DNA of 64,000 nucleotides from Oscillospiraceae bacterium. GTDB taxonomy: Bacteria > Bacillota > Clostridia > Oscillospirales > CAG-272. Numbering within the stretch: position 1 is the first letter of the stretch; each line of letters starts with the position of its first letter. Below, piece by piece: positions 3,492 to 11,443 of the stretch. The position numbers and the translations under genes are program-made. The notes below the pieces were generated by a model, which saw only the letters and a program-made list of their open reading frames with translations, was not told the DNA's origin and searched no databases. Where the stretch lies: NCBI GenBank assembly GCA_015064555.1, contig SVRZ01000010.1, positions 1-64,000 of the forward strand, read 5' to 3'.

Positions 3492-3540
3492 AATGGCAAA
3501 TGATCACCAATAGGTGATAAAACAGAAAGGAGATTTCAAA

Positions 3541-3918
3541 ATGAAAAAGATTTTATCGACAGTTATGGTATGCGCTCTCCTTGTTGGATGCGTATTCACA
3601 TTCGCAGGCTGCGTGCTTTCCGTAGGTCCTATGACCTTCATTTACGGTGAGTATGAAGCAGATCTTGCCATTGCGGAGTATGACTTTGAGTTTTCTCCTC
3701 TTGGCGGTGTAACTGTTACCGTTGATCCCATTATAGGAGATAACTCCGTTCATGAGGGTAAGTACAAGGTAAACAGTGAGACTAAGGAGATCACCCTTAC
3801 ATGGGAAGGCGATGCTCCCGCGCTCTTCGATAACGGAACTATCGACTTCAGCTCCGGCGAAGAGGATGGCGTTGAGTACATTAAGCTTGGCGCTGTTAAG
3901 CTTACTGCTACCGACTAA
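3541..3918 (+). CDS. Small lipoprotein, family unknown (paralogue 1)
   Basis: A 125-residue protein with a signal peptide (positive MKK start, hydrophobic core) and a lipobox ending FAGC near residue 23, so it is probably lipid-anchored on the outer face of the membrane. After the Cys it is beta-rich and acidic, with GKYKV in the middle and EYIKLGAVKL near the end. The same elements recur in the next gene, so the two are paralogues. The start is the ATG 8 bases after AAAGGAG; an ATG nine codons upstream has no ribosome site. I do not recognise the family; a structural or ligand-binding role would be a guess. Confidence 0.8.
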   Translation: MKKILSTVMVCALLVGCVFTFAGCVLSVGPMTFIYGEYEADLAIAEYDFEFSPLGGVTVTVDPIIGDNSVHEGKYKVNSETKEITLTWEGDAPALFDNGTIDFSSGEEDGVEYIKLGAVKLTATD

Positions 3919-3946: not shown

Positions 3947-4315
3947 ATGAAAAGAATAATTTCTATACTTCTCGTTTCGGTTCTTCTTGTCGGATGCGCG
4001 TTCTCTCTTGCATCTTGTGGCAAAAAGCTCAATGGTAAGTACAAGGCAGATGTGCTTGTAGGAAGCACAACTTATGAGTTTAAGGGATCCAAGGTTTTCG
4101 TTACCTTCGAATTTCTCGGACAGGAAAAGACCGTTGAAGGCAAGTACAAGATTGCTGAAAACGATGATGGTGAGCTTGAGATCACCATAACCTTCCCTGA
4201 AGAGGAAAAGGATGCTGAAAAGTATTCCGGAACCTTCTCCTTCGCAGAAGGCAAGGAAGGCGATACCAAGTACATCAAGATCGGTGGCATTAAGCACGTC
4301 AAGGTTGAAAAGTAA
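3947..4315 (+). CDS. Small lipoprotein, family unknown (paralogue 2)
   Basis: A 122-residue lipoprotein with signal peptide and lipobox SLASC, followed by GKKLNGKYKAD. GKYK appears twice, and TKYIKIGGIKHV near the end aligns with EYIKLGAVKL of the preceding protein. It starts 29 bases after that gene's stop, behind GAAAGGGA, and shares its promoter; a terminator follows. The two probably arose by tandem duplication and are co-expressed. Function unknown. Confidence 0.8.
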   Translation: MKRIISILLVSVLLVGCAFSLASCGKKLNGKYKADVLVGSTTYEFKGSKVFVTFEFLGQEKTVEGKYKIAENDDGELEITITFPEEEKDAEKYSGTFSFAEGKEGDTKYIKIGGIKHVKVEK

Positions 4316-4335: not shown

Positions 4336-4369
4336 CGAGCCGCTCGGATTTTTCCGAGCGGCTCGTTTT
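4336..4369 (+). terminator. Terminator of the lipoprotein pair
   Basis: A 12-bp stem, CGAGCCGCTCGG paired with CCGAGCGGCTCG, followed by TTTTATTT. It lies between convergent transcripts and may also serve the ABC operon. Confidence 0.85.
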
Positions 4370-4386
4370 ATTTATCAGATAATATA

Positions 4387-5139
4387 TTAAAGCACTCTTG
4401 AGAGGAATTCCTTGGTTCTTTCCTGCTCGGGATTCGAGAATATCTTTTCGGGAGCACCTTCCTCGACAATGTATCCGCCGTCCATAAAGATCACGCGGTC
4501 CGATACCTCTCTTGCAAAGCCCATCTCGTGAGTAACGACTATCATAGTATAGCCGGAGCTTGCGAGATTTTTCATAACGTCAAGCACCTCGCCGACCATC
4601 TCGGGGTCAAGTGCGGAGGTAGGCTCGTCAAAGAGTATAACGTCGGGATTCATAGAAAGCGCACGCGCGATAGCGATACGCTGCTTCTGTCCGCCCGAAA
4701 GCTGTGCGGGCTTGGCATTTACGTATGCGCTCATACCAACCTTCTCGATAAATCCGCGTGCGATAGCCTCTGCTTCGTCACGCGGGCGACCAAGCACGAC
4801 CGTCTGAGGTCTTACACAGTTATCAAGAGCCGTCATGTTATTGAAAAGATTGAACTGTTGGAAAACCATTCCGACCTTGGTTCTGTAATCTGTAAGCTTA
4901 ACGTCCTTATCCTCGATGTCCTTGCCCTCAAAGTAGATCTTTCCGCCGGTGGGGATCTCAAGGAGGTTGATGCATCTGAGCATCGTGCTCTTTCCGGAGC
5001 CCGAGGATCCGATAACCGATATAACCTCTCCGCGCTTGACGGTTAGATTTATATCCTTCAGAACCTCGTTCTCACCGAACCTTTTCTCAAGGTGAGAAAG
5101 CTCGATAACTGTTTCTGTCTCAAATAAATTTTCTTCCAT
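4387..5139 (-). CDS. Polar amino-acid ABC transporter, ATP-binding protein (lysine likely)
   Basis: A 250-residue ATPase of the GlnQ/HisP type that drives amino-acid import from the inner face of the membrane. Walker [11 protein letters not shown]-loop, signature LSGGQKQR, Walker B VILFDEPT and the switch histidine in VVTHE are all present. It is the last gene of the binding protein-permease-ATPase operon; its ATG is 2 bases past the permease stop and follows GGAGG. The lysine riboswitch at the head of the operon points to lysine, or a related basic amino acid, as the cargo. Confidence 0.93.
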
Positions 5140-5140
5140 T

Positions 5141-5902
5141 TTACTTTACCTCCTGAACGGTGATCTCTGCATTGGGATCGGACTGCGAGCCGCAGATTCT
5201 GTAGGACGCGTTTCCGGAAAGCTTCTTCTCGCAGAAGCGAAGTATACGTGTGATCGAATAGGTCATGATGAAGTACATAACGCATATGATAAGATAGGTC
5301 TCAAAGATGTGATAGGTCATAACCTGTATCTTACCTGCCATATAATAAAGCTCCATAACGCCGATAACGTTCAGCACAGAGGTATCCTTTATATTAATGA
5401 CGAACTCGTTGCTGACAGAGGGAAGTATGTTTCTTAAAACCTGAGGAATGATAACGTGGATCATAGCCTGCCAATGAGTCATGCCTATCGAGTAAGCACC
5501 CTCGAACTGACCTTTATCTATAGAGATTATACCGCCCCTGACGATCTCTGCCATGTAGGCACCCGTGTTAATAGAAACGATAAAAATACCTGCAGGAATG
5601 AGGGGGAGTGTCTGACCGCCGTTCATAAATGCATAGCCCCAGAAGATAACCATAGCCTGAACCATCATAGGTGTTCCGCGGAATATCTCAACGTATACGG
5701 CTATCAGAGCATTGACGGTTTTCTGGAGGTAGTAGAGAGCCTTGTTCTTGGACAGGGGAACAGTCCTTACAATTCCGGTGAGAATACCGATAATAAGTCC
5801 GATAATAGTACCCGTAAGAGCTATGAGCATCGTATATCCAAGACCGCTCATAAGCATAGAGCCGTACTTGGAAATTATCTTTCCAACGTTTTCAAAAAAC
5901 AT
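5141..5902 (-). CDS. Polar amino-acid ABC transporter, permease (lysine likely)
   Basis: A His/Glu/Gln-type permease of about 253 residues with roughly five membrane helices. The EAA loop that docks the ATPase is visible as [20 protein letters not shown]. The frame opens at a TTG three codons earlier, but the ATG at 5902 behind GAAAGG is the likely start. Only one permease gene is present, so the channel is probably a homodimer. The C-terminal tail after the last helix is hydrophilic and longer than in many relatives. Confidence 0.92.
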
Positions 5903-6010
5903 TATTATCAACCTTTCTTAGATAAATGCAAACAATTGTTGTAAAATTTGTGATAAATCCATTCCTTAAAACGGAGGCTGCCGTACATCGGCAGCCCCCT
6001 TAGCATTAAG

Positions 6011-6886
6011 TTATGCCTTCTTATAAATAACAACGAGATTTGAGTTGTAGTAGCAATCGGTGAAGTCAACAACCTCTTCTCTATCATCCGTGGGGCTCAT
6101 ACCTGCGATGATAGCATCGTAGGTGCCTGCCTGAAGACCGGGGATAAGACTATCCCATTCTACTGCGTAGATCTCAAGTGCCATGCCGAGCTCAGCAGCT
6201 ATGTACTTAGCGATCTGAACGTCGTATCCGTTAGCATAGAGGTCGCTGCCGGAGATCTTGACTGCGCCGTTTGCATCGGTGGTCTGAGACCAGTTGAAGG
6301 GATCGTATGCACATTCCATAGCGATCTTGAGAGTGCCGTTTGCAACACTTGTGTTGGAGGAAGAAAGAACGATTGCCTCGCCGAGAGCCTTATCGGGATC
6401 TGCGCTCATCGTAACAGCCTGCTCCATAAGTTTGGATCTGGTTTCAAGAGAAACGCCTGTGAGTATGGTGTTGACCTGTGCTACCATAGCACTTCCGGTC
6501 TTGAATGCAACCGCTATACCGGTATCAGCCTCGGAAGCGGTGAAGCCGGTGGTGTTATTCACGAAGGGAAGGAAATCAAGTCCGTCATTCTGTGCGATTA
6601 TAGAGAATGCGGTGGGCTCTTCTGCAACGTAGCCGTCAATAGCACCCGAGTTAAGAGCAACGAGAAGCTTGGTGAAGTCCTCATATTCCTGAACGTTGAC
6701 CTTTTCTCCGAGCTGAGCATTCAGCGCGTCAAGGTGGAAGGTTCCTGTCTGAGCCGCGATGGTCGCGCCCTCAAGGTCTGCGATGGTCTTTGCACCGGAG
6801 ATGTCAACTGCATTTCTCTTGTTGCAGGAAACTAAGCATCCGGCAAGAAGTACTGTGGCGAGGATGATTGCGATAATTCTTTTCAT
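6011..6886 (-). CDS. ABC transporter substrate-binding lipoprotein, circularly permuted
   Basis: The binding protein of the lysine-riboswitch operon, 291 residues, secreted by a signal peptide with lipobox LAGC (Cys17; LVSC21 is an alternative). The order of the type II binding fold is reversed. Residues 30-165 (IADLEGATIAAQTG, YVAEEPTA, GIAVAFKTG, then the closing helix) correspond to the second half of ordinary amino-acid binding proteins. Residues 184-291 (LKIAMECAYDPFNW, GYDVQIAKYIAAELG, EWDSLIPGLQAGTYDAIIAG, VVDFTDCYY) correspond to the first half. The old C-terminus is joined to the old N-terminus by a Ser/Asn-rich linker. All parts of one domain are present once, so it may still fold and bind. 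A deletion within a tandem duplication is the simplest origin. Confidence 0.9.
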   Translation of the reverse strand: MKRIIAIILATVLLAGCLVSCNKRNAVDISGAKTIADLEGATIAAQTGTFHLDALNAQLGEKVNVQEYEDFTKLLVALNSGAIDGYVAEEPTAFSIIAQNDGLDFLPFVNNTTGFTASEADTGIAVAFKTGSAMVAQVNTILTGVSLETRSKLMEQAVTMSADPDKALGEAIVLSSSNTSVANGTLKIAMECAYDPFNWSQTTDANGAVKISGSDLYANGYDVQIAKYIAAELGMALEIYAVEWDSLIPGLQAGTYDAIIAGMSPTDDREEVVDFTDCYYNSNLVVIYKKA

Positions 6887-6930
6887 GGTTTTTCTCCTTT
6901 TGGCATTTTAGCCATACATAATATTTAAAA

Positions 6931-7185
6931 CAAAACGGTCGAAGCAAGTGCTTCGACCGATAAATGCAAAAAAGCAGATATTTCAATCGAATATAGCACT
7001 CCACAAGGAACCCTGTGACAGTTGCTGACATATTATCCCAGCACCCAACGAAAACACTCTCAAAAAGCATTTGCATTTCGGCGGCTACACCTTTCAACGG
7101 CGGTCATAGACGTTCTGAGCGTCTACCGCAGGCTACTAATTGCATCCGCGCCTCTAATTCTCTGATTCGACTATTAAGTTTTATG
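6931..7185 (-). promoter_or_regulatory. Lysine riboswitch (L-box) of the ABC operon
   Basis: On the minus strand, conserved L-box blocks appear in order: AGAGGCGC, then AGTAG, GAAAGGTGTAGCCGCCGAA, GCTGGG, and AACTGTCACA, as in the five-helix lysine aptamer. A terminator (CGGTCGAAGCA paired with TGCTTCGACCG, 6936-6959, then TTTTGTTTT) ends the leader about 45 bases before the binding-protein start. Bound lysine should favour termination, so import is repressed when lysine is plentiful. Confidence 0.92.
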
Positions 7186-7190
7186 TGGGT

Positions 7191-7219
7191 ATTATAGCAC
7201 GTGTATATTGCTTTGTCAA
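7191..7219 (-). promoter_or_regulatory. Consensus promoter of the lysine riboswitch transcript
   Basis: Perfect TTGACA (7214-7219), 17 bases, perfect TATAAT (7191-7196) on the minus strand. Constitutive strength fits control by the downstream riboswitch. Confidence 0.9.
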
Positions 7220-7273: not shown

Positions 7274-7846
7274 TCAGGCTGTGATCTTGTCGAGGATCAT
7301 CTTGATATCGTCAAGAAATTCCTCCTTGGTCTTGACCGGATTGGATATATGTGCGACGACGAGGGTAGCCAGACCGCCGTTTATGAAGTTGGCGGTCATT
7401 CTGGTATCCCGAGGCAGATCGCTTGCGGTTATAGACCGAACTATCGTCAGGTTGCCAATAAGCTCTTTGAGACTGTTTGTGGAAATTGATTCCATTATAA
7501 TGGAGAAGCATCCTTGCGAAAGAATATTCTTCAGCATTTGTGGCTTTGATTCAAAATATTCGATTATTCTTTGTATGTAGAGCGTAAGGTATTCCGAGGT
7601 AGTGAAATGTTTCTTTTCCTTCATCACCGTTTCGGCAAGGTCGGAAAGAGTTCTGCTTATAACAAAGGAGAGAAAGGCGTACTTATCCTCAAAGTGCTTA
7701 TAGAAAGTAGCTCGTCTTATGTCGGCTTTCTCGCAAAGATCAAAAACGGTAATGCTGTCAAATGGCATCTCATGCATCATTTCGCAGAGCGCGTGCATAA
7801 GCTTATCATATGTTTTTACGATTCTTAAATCAATTTTATCAGCCAT
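7274..7846 (-). CDS. TetR/AcrR-family transcriptional regulator
   Basis: A 190-residue repressor-type protein. Residues about 10-55 form the TetR helix-turn-helix, ending in the typical ADIRRATFYKHFEDKYAF; the rest is the helical ligand and dimer domain, with no recognisable ligand signature. It lies 51 bases after the YhaN-like gene on the same strand and ends just before the promoter of the lysine operon. The bases before its start contain a directly repeated AACATAT, a possible self-operator. Target genes are not evident. Confidence 0.88.
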   Translation of the reverse strand: MADKIDLRIVKTYDKLMHALCEMMHEMPFDSITVFDLCEKADIRRATFYKHFEDKYAFLSFVISRTLSDLAETVMKEKKHFTTSEYLTLYIQRIIEYFESKPQMLKNILSQGCFSIIMESISTNSLKELIGNLTIVRSITASDLPRDTRMTANFINGGLATLVVAHISNPVKTKEEFLDDIKMILDKITA

Positions 7847-7897: not shown

Positions 7898-10363
7898 TTA
7901 CTTAATGCGTCTTGCGCGCGAGCAAGTGAAGTAAAGTATCTGCCGCTTATTTCCAAGCTTTTTGAGAACCGATATTGCTTTTTCTGTATGAGTATCGTCA
8001 AATCCGATAAACGGATCATCAAGAATAAGCGGCGGAAGCTCGTCCTCGTAGAGAGCATCGATCAGCGAAAGCCTGATTGCGAGCGCGTGAAGATCACGGG
8101 TACCGCGGCTGTAAGCCTCCTCCGAGCGTGATTTTCCGAGGTCACGCTTGGTTACGGTGAATTGAGTATCCATCGTGAATTCGCCATTCGAATCGTCGAT
8201 GAGCGAAAGATACTTTTCAAAGCCTGCCCTCGTACCGTCAAGATACTTAGCGGTCATTTTTGTTTTTGCAACGCTGAGCAGCTCCTTGGCTTTTGTAATT
8301 ACAGAGAGGTTTCCGTTATATACGTCAAGCCTTTCGGTCAGCTCTCTCAGACGCTCCTCGAGCTCATCGATCTTTTCAACGTCGCGGACAAGAGTACCGT
8401 AATCGCTCTCAAGCTTTGACTTGTTTCTCTCCTCGGCGATAAGCTCCTCGTCTATAGCGCGGAGCTCTGAGGGAGGTTCTACGGCAACAAATCCGACAGG
8501 CTCGCCTACCTGCGGAGCACCGCTGATTCCGTGACTTGCGGCAAAGCCCGTAGCCTCGCCTCTGCGGCGACCGAGAGATGCGCGTAAGACGTCAAACTCG
8601 GCAAGCTTAGTGCGTATCTCGTTTATCGGATCGCGCGATTCGGTGGGGAAGCGCGTGAGGAATGCTTCGATATCTACCTTCAATTTATTATACCGCTCGG
8701 TATATGCCGCGCGCTGCGTGTCGCTCTCGGATATGCTCTCAAGCAGAGCATCGTATCTTCTGCGCTTTTTCAGAATATCCTCCGTCTTTTCCTCGGGGGT
8801 GATACCTTCGGCAAGCGGATATTTTTCTGTAAATTCGCGCACGTCCCTTTCGTTTCTTTCGGTAGCAAGGCGAAGCGACTCCAGGCGTCTGTTCTCGTTT
8901 TCCGCATCACGCGATGCGGCAGAGTATCGCTCGAGCTCAGCACGCATGGTGAGGAGCGCGGTGATCTCATCTCCGGGGGTGCAATCCTTGCCATAGACCT
9001 CAAATACATAATTGCGTATGTTTGAGATCGCGCTGCTTGATCGCCCTTCTTTTTTTCTCAACACGCCAAAAATGCCAATAATTGTTAGCAAAACACCGAG
9101 AATTGAAGCTGCATACAGGAATTTATCAACAGACATTCCCGCGAAAACTCCTATAGCTGTTAATGATATTCCTATGACTGTCAGAAGCAGTCCGCCGCCG
9201 GGCGCCTTAGATGCAGGTGCTGCCGCGGCGATAGATAATTCGTTGATTTTTTCTGCCGAGGGGATGCTTATAAATTCGCTCTTTGGTGCGGCACTCGCGC
9301 CGCTCCTGCCTATGAGCTCGGCATTGGCGCGCGACACCTCGTGGGCGAGCGAAGCTATTTTTTCACATTCGGCAACCGTCGTTTCCTTTGCGAAGAAGGT
9401 GCGAAGCGATCTTATCTCTTCCGATTCTTCCATATCCGAGAGTGCACGTCCGAGTCTTTCGGAATCCTCCATCATAGAAGATACGGCGGCAATTTCCGCA
9501 TTCGTCGGTACTCCGCGTGAGAAGAAGGTGATAAGTTGAGCCTCTCGTTCCTCATCCGGGCGCATCGCGTTTATCATCGCGGCATATTGCGCCTCGTAGC
9601 CCTGCTTCTCCTTTCTCAGTGCCTCGGCTCTTTCGTTTTCCAGAGCCTTATCCTTTCGTGCTTTGATCTCTCTTATTTTGTCAGCCGATGCCGAAATAGC
9701 ACGCTCCATCTCTGCCGCGCCTGCGCGCCTTGCCTTGAGCTCTGCAATTTCATCCTCGGTTCTGCTTATTTCCGACTGCAACTCGCGTATCTCGCCGCTT
9801 CCGCCCTTTTTTTGATAGAATCTGCGCCGCTCGTCAAGAAGCTTTATAGCCGCATCAAAGCCGCCTATATCTCCTTCGACTCCAACCAAGTTGGAAAGCT
9901 TTGCCGAAATTGTCTGATTTGTATTTTTTCCCGAAAGATTTTTCTCGGAGAGGAAAACCGTTCGCTCAAATCCGTCCTGATCTATACCGAGTATGGTTTC
10001 TCCGGGGATCGCGCCGAGCTCCTCTGTGACGGATCCGGTGTCCAGGCGGTAGACCTCGAGCGTGTCCTCGCTCGGCTTTGCGCCGAAGGTCCTCTCAATG
10101 CGGTAGGCGATACCCTTTACGAGGATAGTCATATAACCGCCGAATGCGCCGCCCTGCCACGGGGTGTATTTTTTTCTGTCATTTTCGTCAAGACTCAGCT
10201 TTCTGCTCTCGTCGAAGCCGTAAAGCATCGCCTTGATAAAGACGGAAAGCGTTGTTTTACCGAATCCGTTATCCTCGGTGAAGGCGTTTATGCCCGGGGT
10301 GAGCGTGCGCTTGAATTTAGAGAGCTTTCCGAAATTTTCAACGTAAAGTTCCTTGATCTCCAT
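7898..10363 (-). CDS. SbcC/YhaN-like coiled-coil ATPase
   Basis: An 821-residue SMC/Rad50-like ATPase. It opens with MEIKELYVENFGKL and Walker A NGFGKTTL (residues 32-39). Long charged coiled coils fill about 180-330 and 460-720, and the C-terminus carries the signature SRGTRDLHALAIRLSL and Walker B LILDDPFIGFDD. Between the coils, about residues 395-440, lie two hydrophobic, membrane-like helices; YhaN-type proteins have these, ordinary SbcC proteins do not. With the neighbouring nuclease it would form a complex that processes DNA ends or hairpins, perhaps at the membrane. It starts behind GGAGGG, 9 bases after the nuclease stop. Confidence 0.87.
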   Translation of the reverse strand: MEIKELYVENFGKLSKFKRTLTPGINAFTEDNGFGKTTLSVFIKAMLYGFDESRKLSLDENDRKKYTPWQGGAFGGYMTILVKGIAYRIERTFGAKPSEDTLEVYRLDTGSVTEELGAIPGETILGIDQDGFERTVFLSEKNLSGKNTNQTISAKLSNLVGVEGDIGGFDAAIKLLDERRRFYQKKGGSGEIRELQSEISRTEDEIAELKARRAGAAEMERAISASADKIREIKARKDKALENERAEALRKEKQGYEAQYAAMINAMRPDEEREAQLITFFSRGVPTNAEIAAVSSMMEDSERLGRALSDMEESEEIRSLRTFFAKETTVAECEKIASLAHEVSRANAELIGRSGASAAPKSEFISIPSAEKINELSIAAAAPASKAPGGGLLLTVIGISLTAIGVFAGMSVDKFLYAASILGVLLTIIGIFGVLRKKEGRSSSAISNIRNYVFEVYGKDCTPGDEITALLTMRAELERYSAASRDAENENRRLESLRLATERNERDVREFTEKYPLAEGITPEEKTEDILKKRRRYDALLESISESDTQRAAYTERYNKLKVDIEAFLTRFPTESRDPINEIRTKLAEFDVLRASLGRRRGEATGFAASHGISGAPQVGEPVGFVAVEPPSELRAIDEELIAEERNKSKLESDYGTLVRDVEKIDELEERLRELTERLDVYNGNLSVITKAKELLSVAKTKMTAKYLDGTRAGFEKYLSLIDDSNGEFTMDTQFTVTKRDLGKSRSEEAYSRGTRDLHALAIRLSLIDALYEDELPPLILDDPFIGFDDTHTEKAISVLKKLGNKRQILYFTCSRARRIK

Positions 10364-10372
10364 ATAGCCCTC

Positions 10373-11443
10373 CTATTCGTCAAATGCCTCGCCCGCCAAG
10401 GCGGACAGACCGCAATGTATGATCTTTTCCTTTTCCTCGTCATCGAGAGTCTCGTCGGCGAGGCAGAGCCGTATGAATTCTCCGCGAAGCGACTTATCGT
10501 ATCGGTAATCCTCTGCGCGTGTGAGGAGACGGCTGTTGTCCTTTATCTCAAAATAGTAGAATTTTTGTCTGAATTTTTCGGTGAGGAGTGCCTTATCGCA
10601 TCTGAGCTCAAGCTCGCGCTTCCCGGTGAAGCATACGCGCACAAGGCTTGTATCCGCGATATCAGATGTTGCCTCGGCAATACGAGCCTCGATCTCATGA
10701 GTACGGAGAGCAGAGCTTATATCCACCTCGCGTATTACAAGCTCTCTTGAGGCGAAGGGAATAAATCTGTGCGAAACACTGTCCGTGGTTACGTTGACGA
10801 GCGAGAAGCCGAGCTTTCCTACTTCGTCAAATCCGCGTCCCTCGGGAGCCCCCGAATAAACGGCGATGCCACGCTTATCTATTCTGTGAGCACTATATGT
10901 ATGATAGTGACCGAGCGCCATATAATCTATCCCTCGGCCTGCCGCATCTGTAAGACCGATTATCTCCTCGGGACGGCATCTTTCTCTGAGCTCGCCGTGG
11001 AGCACTACTATATTTCTGTCGTTTTCATTCAAACGGAGCTTATCGAACATATTTTCCTCGATACTGCTCCTTCCTGCGACGGTGATGTTCCCGAACTTGA
11101 AATAGGTCCAGTCGTTTCCGAATATCATAAGATTTTTCGGCAGGACCTCGCCCGATTCAAGGAGCACGTTTCTCTCGTGATTTCCCGGCAGGTAGAAGAA
11201 TGCCATATTTTCCGCGCGTGCTATGACCGAGAGGGCCGAGTCAAGCTCTTTTCTTGTTATTCTCTCGCTGTCAAAGAGATCGCCCGCAATTATCATAGCC
11301 GATGCGCCGAGCTTCATACCCTCGTTGCACATACGCATAAAATTGGCGGTAAGCTCGCGTCTTCTTGATGCGATCTTGGACGAAGGAAGTCTTGTACTCA
11401 GGGGAGAAGCCAGATGTATATCTGACGTGTGTAATATTTTCAT
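10373..11443 (-). CDS. SbcD/YhaO-like metallophosphoesterase nuclease
   Basis: A 356-residue Mre11/SbcD-type DNA exonuclease. The calcineurin-fold metal motifs occur in order: HTSDIHLASPL at the N-terminus, AGDLFDSE, PGNHE, VVLHG and LGHYHTYS. The C-terminal 130 residues are the capping and ATPase-binding part. It is the partner of the following YhaN-like ATPase, as in the yhaO-yhaN pair of Bacillus. Its ATG overlaps the stop of the AraC-type gene by four bases (ATGA), so the two are translationally coupled. Confidence 0.9.
   Translation of the reverse strand: MKILHTSDIHLASPLSTRLPSSKIASRRRELTANFMRMCNEGMKLGASAMIIAGDLFDSERITRKELDSALSVIARAENMAFFYLPGNHERNVLLESGEVLPKNLMIFGNDWTYFKFGNITVAGRSSIEENMFDKLRLNENDRNIVVLHGELRERCRPEEIIGLTDAAGRGIDYMALGHYHTYSAHRIDKRGIAVYSGAPEGRGFDEVGKLGFSLVNVTTDSVSHRFIPFASRELVIREVDISSALRTHEIEARIAEATSDIADTSLVRVCFTGKRELELRCDKALLTEKFRQKFYYFEIKDNSRLLTRAEDYRYDKSLRGEFIRLCLADETLDDEEKEKIIHCGLSALAGEAFDE

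Follow-up and report, generated by a model that had tools for sequence, protein, structure and literature searches.

The gene at positions 6011..6886, on the minus strand of the window (the whole 64,000-nucleotide stretch that was analysed, from contig SVRZ01000010.1 of an Oscillospiraceae gut bacterium), encodes P0001, a protein of 291 residues that open reading frame (ORF) and homology evidence identify as a circularly permuted lysine-type substrate-binding protein (SBP) lipoprotein. P0001 belongs to an ATP-binding cassette (ABC) importer operon, and all features of the operon lie on the minus strand. A sigma-70-type promoter, TTGACA - 17 - TATAAT, is located at 7191..7219 by consensus match only (12/12 consensus). 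A lysine riboswitch aptamer at 6986..7164 matches RF00168 over the full model (1-182) with 104.9 bits (gathering 30). The interval between the aptamer and the start codon features an intrinsic-terminator-like hairpin at 6936..6959, with 10 pairs, 7 of them G-C, and a U-rich tail, which is the probable expression platform; the fold z-score for 6915-6985 is -4.86. A ribosome-binding site (Shine-Dalgarno), AAAGGAG, was read from the sequence at 6894..6900. The SBP gene is followed by an amino-acid ABC permease (5141..5911), with BPD_transp_1 and HEQRo_perm_3TM above cut-off, and by an ABC ATPase of the polar amino-acid type (4387..5139), with ABC_tran above cut-off; the top NCBIfam matches of the ATPase are TcyN and GlnQ, both below their cut-offs. 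A terminator-like hairpin of 13 pairs, 10 of them G-C, is located 3' of the ATPase gene (4336..4365) by pattern match only. The layout is that of a transcriptional lysine off-switch, in which high lysine would turn the operon off. The lysX-lysY systems (COG0834) of Firmicutes share this riboswitch and ABC layout, with a lysine riboswitch before a polar amino-acid ABC system in the passages of PMC5584792 that concern them, which make no mention of segment order.

The signal peptide and lipobox of P0001 extend to Cys21 (6824..6886, LPAM_1 match at residues 1-17), and this cysteine is unchanged in 15/15 aligned rows, P0001 counted. Canonical family-3 SBPs feature the segment order N1-C-N2, whereas hidden Markov models of the three segments find P0001 in the order C-N2-N1. 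Segment C, the C-lobe, whose canonical position is the middle, spans residues 28-121 (6524..6805), and N2, the N-lobe return strand and last helices, whose canonical position is last, spans residues 122-163 (6398..6523). A new linker from the old C-terminus to the old N-terminus appears as a gap between N2 and N1 in the scan (residues 164-183, 6338..6397), after which N1, the canonically first half of the N-lobe, occupies residues 184-290 (6017..6337) and includes an SBP_bac_3 match at 217-290. The C-terminus of P0001 is the former hinge strand. A preliminary description of the locus had named motifs that run in the opposite order from that of ordinary amino-acid binding proteins, and these are present in the order claimed, with one copy of each.

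When native P0001 is compared with the PDB by phmmer, the alignment falls into two stretches whose order is swapped. On AncQR (4zv1), residues 183-290 of P0001 align with chain residues 9-104 (56.9 bits) and residues 32-143 with 109-215 (17.9 bits), and rotation in silico (residues 184-291 followed by 26-170) yields a single stretch, 1-226 on 10-215, with 87.0 bits. TIGR01096 is matched in two stretches by the native sequence (111.6 bits) and in one by the rotated sequence (117.1 bits), both below the curated cut-off of 256. SBP_bac_3 (PF00497) scores 83.2 bits against a cut-off of 26.4 and covers only profile positions 20-92 of 132. On the PDB chains matched by P0001, the unpermuted sister L035 gives a collinear alignment. 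When a profile was built from P0001 and 14 orthologues, GlnPQ (6h30) was the only chain, among 60 of the 62 matched chains, with a best stretch that keeps to the native order through most of the permuted profile; this stretch connects the SBD1 C-lobe with the SBD2 N-lobe, and GlnPQ differs from P0001 in featuring two complete canonical domains in a permease-fused protein. P0001 is a permuted descendant of family-3 SBPs and not an ordinary member. A chance order of motifs is excluded by the significant two-part alignments and the single stretch after rotation, and a canonical order regained through a longer frame was rejected, the open frame being only 298 codons in all.

The C-N2-N1 order is common to 31 distinct lysine-type sequences, the window's included, from many assemblies. 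A tree of 86 lysine-type SBP rows was calculated with the segments in common order (N1 above 100 bits, C above 35 bits, duplicates dropped), and the 31 permuted rows form one side of a branch (100/99). The permuted clade is grouped with canonical rows L035, L036, L099, and L137-L141 (100/99), among other canonical rows; the chosen outgroup rows of this tree are not one side of a branch. The permeases encoded at these loci, in which the permutation has left no mark, give a matching tree: the 31 permuted-operon permeases fall in one clade (96/91) and canonical L065/L066/L099 are sister to it (99/84). On this comparative evidence there is one permutation event in one operon lineage, since the SBPs form a single clade and the tree of the adjoining permeases agrees with it. 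After rotation, P0001 shares 54% identity with its nearest canonical relatives (L035, L036, and L099); the highest identity between a permuted and a canonical protein is 61%.

The native order of P0001 is well modelled by AlphaFold (AF2), with a predicted local distance difference test (pLDDT) score of 88.5, and the fold of the permuted protein is predicted with confidence. The predicted structure features two alpha/beta lobes of the family-3 kind. Model residues 28-116 superpose on domain 2 of TmArgBP with a root-mean-square deviation (rmsd) of 1.9 over 83 residues, and residues 181-283 superpose on domain 1 with an rmsd of 1.7 over 90 residues. The linker region 163-184 has no assigned helix or strand, with a mean pLDDT of 83 for residues 161-170 and 94 for residues 171-180.

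We assign a probability of roughly 0.87 to the reading that P0001 is a circularly permuted SBP lipoprotein of a lysine-riboswitch-controlled ABC importer that arose once by permutation at hinge strand 1. The earlier claim of a permuted yet complete type II domain, with a lysine riboswitch and its own permease and ATPase, holds up in the sequence, the trees, the synteny, and the confident model. A canonical N1-C-N2 gene of the operon lineage would have been permuted once at hinge strand 1 to give C-N2-N1, with a linker of ~20 residues joining the old termini. The new N-terminus, which carries the lipid anchor, and the new C-terminus would both be located at the former hinge, with the anchor ~10 residues from it. 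Each lobe would be a continuous stretch, and one inter-lobe crossing would remain as compared with two in canonical proteins. The two lobes would still trap their ligand, which is most likely L-lysine, and pass it to the adjacent permease and ATPase, so that ordinary lysine capture and delivery are expected, with possible shifts in opening rate and tether geometry. Such a one-crossing flytrap is plausible because cpLAO, an engineered lysine/arginine/ornithine-binding protein (LAO) that was opened by removal of one inter-domain linker, with the old termini flexibly joined, still binds lysine according to the relevant passages of PMC5087393. The topology of cpLAO is of the same kind as that of natural P0001; cpLAO differs in being man-made and fused to fluorescent proteins, and the affinity of that construct was 36-fold lower (PMC5087393, same passages). 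For biosensor design, the permuted SBPs provide counterparts of the cpLAO topology that evolved naturally.

Several observations weigh against this reading. Permuted and canonical forms both occur in genera g1, g32, g46, and g209 of a sample of the window's family, which requires operon transfer or losses. An initial 57-row tree, whose outgroups were more distant, did not resolve the base of the permuted rows, and the clade was resolved with the 86-row lysine-only set. The structural model was built on 15 sequences without templates, for P0001 alone, and its weakest mature-domain block (residues 191-200, pLDDT 73) includes pocket residues. Additionally, the fetched loci showed no tandem or other intermediate in the lysine lineage; of the long frames in that search L007 is an SBP-permease fusion, and L038, L044, L047, L055, and the hits without a locus were not checked singly.

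The gene was probably duplicated in tandem and in frame, after which the outermost N1 at one end and the outermost C-N2 at the other were lost. This tandem-loss origin is plausible because N1-C-N2 in-frame tandems and phase-shifted C-N2-N1 arrays exist in other SBPs of the same taxonomic order, and we infer the step for the lysine lineage itself. The two-domain tandems anticipated by the preliminary description were thus found among relatives, in other SBPs of the same order, but not in the lysine lineage among the fetched loci. Canonical-phase tandems repeat N1-C-N2 two or three times (L129, L132, L133, L135, and L136); the repeated units are complete SBP domains that resemble each other closely, within a single frame of 751-905 codons, and by eye the tandems of L129 and L136 continue into a fused permease. 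Permuted-phase tandems repeat C-N2-N1 two or three times (L175-L183), with N2 not always scored. The two phases of tandem array are what duplication and loss of the outer parts would leave. A different route, in which the gene was split and re-fused in swapped order or two genes recombined, is possible but doubtful. It is in keeping with the lack of a tandem lysine-type SBP among the fetched loci (hits listed without a locus left out), but related SBPs have in-frame tandems in both phases, and the N2-to-N1 gap measures 9-14 residues in the five canonical tandems, compared with 13-34 (median 18) in 65 permuted proteins.

The hinge permutation is not confined to the lysine type. The same taxonomic order also includes a second C-N2-N1 family, A2 (6 rows), along with many relatives, and a further form, N2-N1-C, opens at the other hinge. 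Classed by segment order, the unique proteins of the fetched loci comprise 65 C-N2-N1, 64 N1-C-N2, 9 N2-N1-C, 5 canonical tandems, and 6 that are partial or mixed, counts that do not give a frequency since the loci were drawn with permuted profiles. In a tree of 82 rows, which includes 14 chosen lysine rows, canonical rows separate the lysine permutants from the other C-N2-N1 proteins (100/100 branch with 8 canonical and 6 permuted rows). This tree requires 8 changes for C-N2-N1, of which starred branches force 5, and 4 changes for N2-N1-C, 3 of them forced; how many events underlie the other permuted SBPs is uncertain, since permuted profiles were used to pick the loci and canonical forms are under-sampled. 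At least two origins of permutation are well supported by these sequences, unless canonical order was restored, because canonical rows lie between the permuted groups and the tree requires the changes; more than two origins are likely. We somewhat favour a wider reading for the amino-acid SBPs of Clostridia, in which hinge permutation is repeated and tolerated and the C-N2-N1 form, the N2-N1-C form, and permuted tandems or permease fusions arose several times from in-frame tandems losing their outer parts. If true, in all such forms the lobes are continuous with one crossing and the lipid anchor is shifted to the hinge.

The single-contig genome G277 features both permuted forms (L160 and L166). 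The N2-N1-C SBPs are L165-L173 and L076 (genomes G163, G277, G197, G096, G344, G078, G380, G398, G122, and G045); the C part of L173 has no score, and L169 (G344) is located in the window's own genus. By eye, one permuted tandem (L175 283-3684, G320) leads on to a permease and an ATPase in a 1134-codon frame, apparently a whole importer, and permuted SBPs of L126 and L127 (G153 and G314) are fused straight to a permease in frames of 510 and 530 codons. A 628-codon frame in L162 (G204), cut by the contig end, features two successive permuted SBP units.

The ligand of P0001 is likely lysine, because the gene follows a lysine riboswitch and the pocket is invariant: the pocket residues, whose assignment follows LAO/ArtJ structures, are unchanged in 31/31 permuted rows. 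The riboswitch is located 5' of 30/31 permuted rows, the miss being L098, which is cut by the contig end, and of 8/8 canonical sister loci (L065, L066, L099, and L137-L141). Among other canonical lysine-type loci the riboswitch is common but not universal; it is present at L062-L064, L006, L007, L078, L103-L106, L144, L146, and L148, and was not found at L077, L081, L008, L100, L101, L102, L142, L145, and L147. At L069-L076, eight loci that carry other permuted SBPs, no lysine riboswitch was found. It is improbable that the permutation is real and the ligand is arginine, ornithine, histidine, or several basic amino acids, with lysine sensed by the riboswitch as a proxy. The nearest profile families, all below cut-offs, include lysine/arginine/ornithine, arginine, and glutamine binders, which together with a pocket assignment carried over from LAO/ArtJ structures leaves room for such a ligand, but the lysine riboswitch has been kept at 30/31 permuted and 8/8 sister loci. 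A degenerate SBP retained by drift without a transport role is very improbable, given the invariant pocket and the kept riboswitch and operon, in which permease and ATPase follow the SBP in 31/31 permuted loci. Additionally, no second match beside the permuted one was found in 21 family genomes (E 1e-20, at most 8 candidates scored per genome), and no second copy was found in the window's genome at E 0.001, the genome being 82% complete. This genome is a fragmented draft of 44 contigs, yet misassembly of a canonical or tandem two-domain gene has a negligible chance because independent assemblies carry the same order, one orthologue (L027) is located on a 210-kb contig, and the protein ends 0-3 residues beyond N1 and the former hinge strand in 31/31 permuted rows.

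In the family sample (295 genomes), 60 genomes matched at E 1e-20, comprising 21 near-full-length permuted matches, 1 different fused protein (G320), and 38 partial canonical-pattern or single-part matches; the permuted match of G437 begins only at position 36. The order sample gave matches in 46/394 genomes, and its lysine permutants are G000 (the window's genome), G202, and G077. Matches were found in 50/391 genomes of the class sample at E 1e-25 and in 34/398 of the phylum sample at E 1e-40, and in both the lysine permutant occurs only in the window's genome. A wide spread of the lysine permutant was rejected, the class and phylum samples having given one genome each. Five further near-full-length sample matches comprise two A2 members (G085 and G117) and three unclassed proteins (G695, G907, and G972). 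The other lysine permutants come from family f1 and from NCBI records labelled Clostridia, Oscillospiraceae, or Erysipelotrichaceae. The Erysipelotrichaceae-labelled record (L030) features a permuted lysine operon, by transfer or in a mislabelled bin, and for L031, labelled Clostridiales, only N1 is present, at a contig end, so that this locus is left unclassed.

Natural circular permutation has been described among betaine binders (OpuAC/ProX), molybdate binders, and CysB, at less than 24% identity, by CPSARST (PMC2395249), the passages concerned not stating which form is derived. OpuAC/ProX proteins are likewise type II SBPs, and OpuAC proteins are the top structural matches of the P0001 model; they are a different family with 11-13% identity to P0001, in contrast to the canonical sisters at 54%, and no OpuAC-type family is among the Pfam/NCBIfam matches of P0001 at E up to 0.001. 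MglB-2 (Tp0684) of Treponema pallidum, a 'Type Ic' SBP, is a natural permutant that retains ligand binding, and proteins resembling it come chiefly from treponemes and from Gram-positive bacteria, many of them of gut origin, according to the passages of PMC4990184 that describe them. MglB-2 shares with P0001 that it is a natural permuted, probably tethered SBP of an ABC importer, and differs in its type I fold, glucose ligand, and other cut (PMC4990184, same passages). P0001 is not a type I protein, its sequence matches being family 3 (type II) and its model lobes matching type II lobes. The matches listed in the open-licence literature do not describe natural permutation for any family-3 amino-acid SBP, and the text of PMC2861598 contains no permutation terms. 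Events of this kind are known, and P0001 adds a new, independent case from a family for which the literature searched gave no such description; its lineage has close unpermuted sisters, and there is evidence that such events recur. The natural SBP permutants found in print lie far from their unpermuted relatives, in contrast to the close pairs here. The effect of one lost crossing and of a lipid anchor at the hinge is directly testable, because the close permuted and canonical forms share riboswitch, permease, and ATPase. Profiles that assume one segment order recognise such permuted genes only partly.

The neighbouring genes of the operon include a TetR-type regulator upstream (7274-7846, minus strand), whose DhaS match of 53.4 bits is below the cut-off of 129. 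On the plus strand, 3514-3918 and 3947-4315 are adjoining small lipoprotein-like ORFs, possibly paralogous, without a Pfam match. A large ATPase-like ORF (7898-11443, minus strand) is located beside a phosphoesterase-like ORF, and the two presumably resemble an SbcC/SbcD pair.
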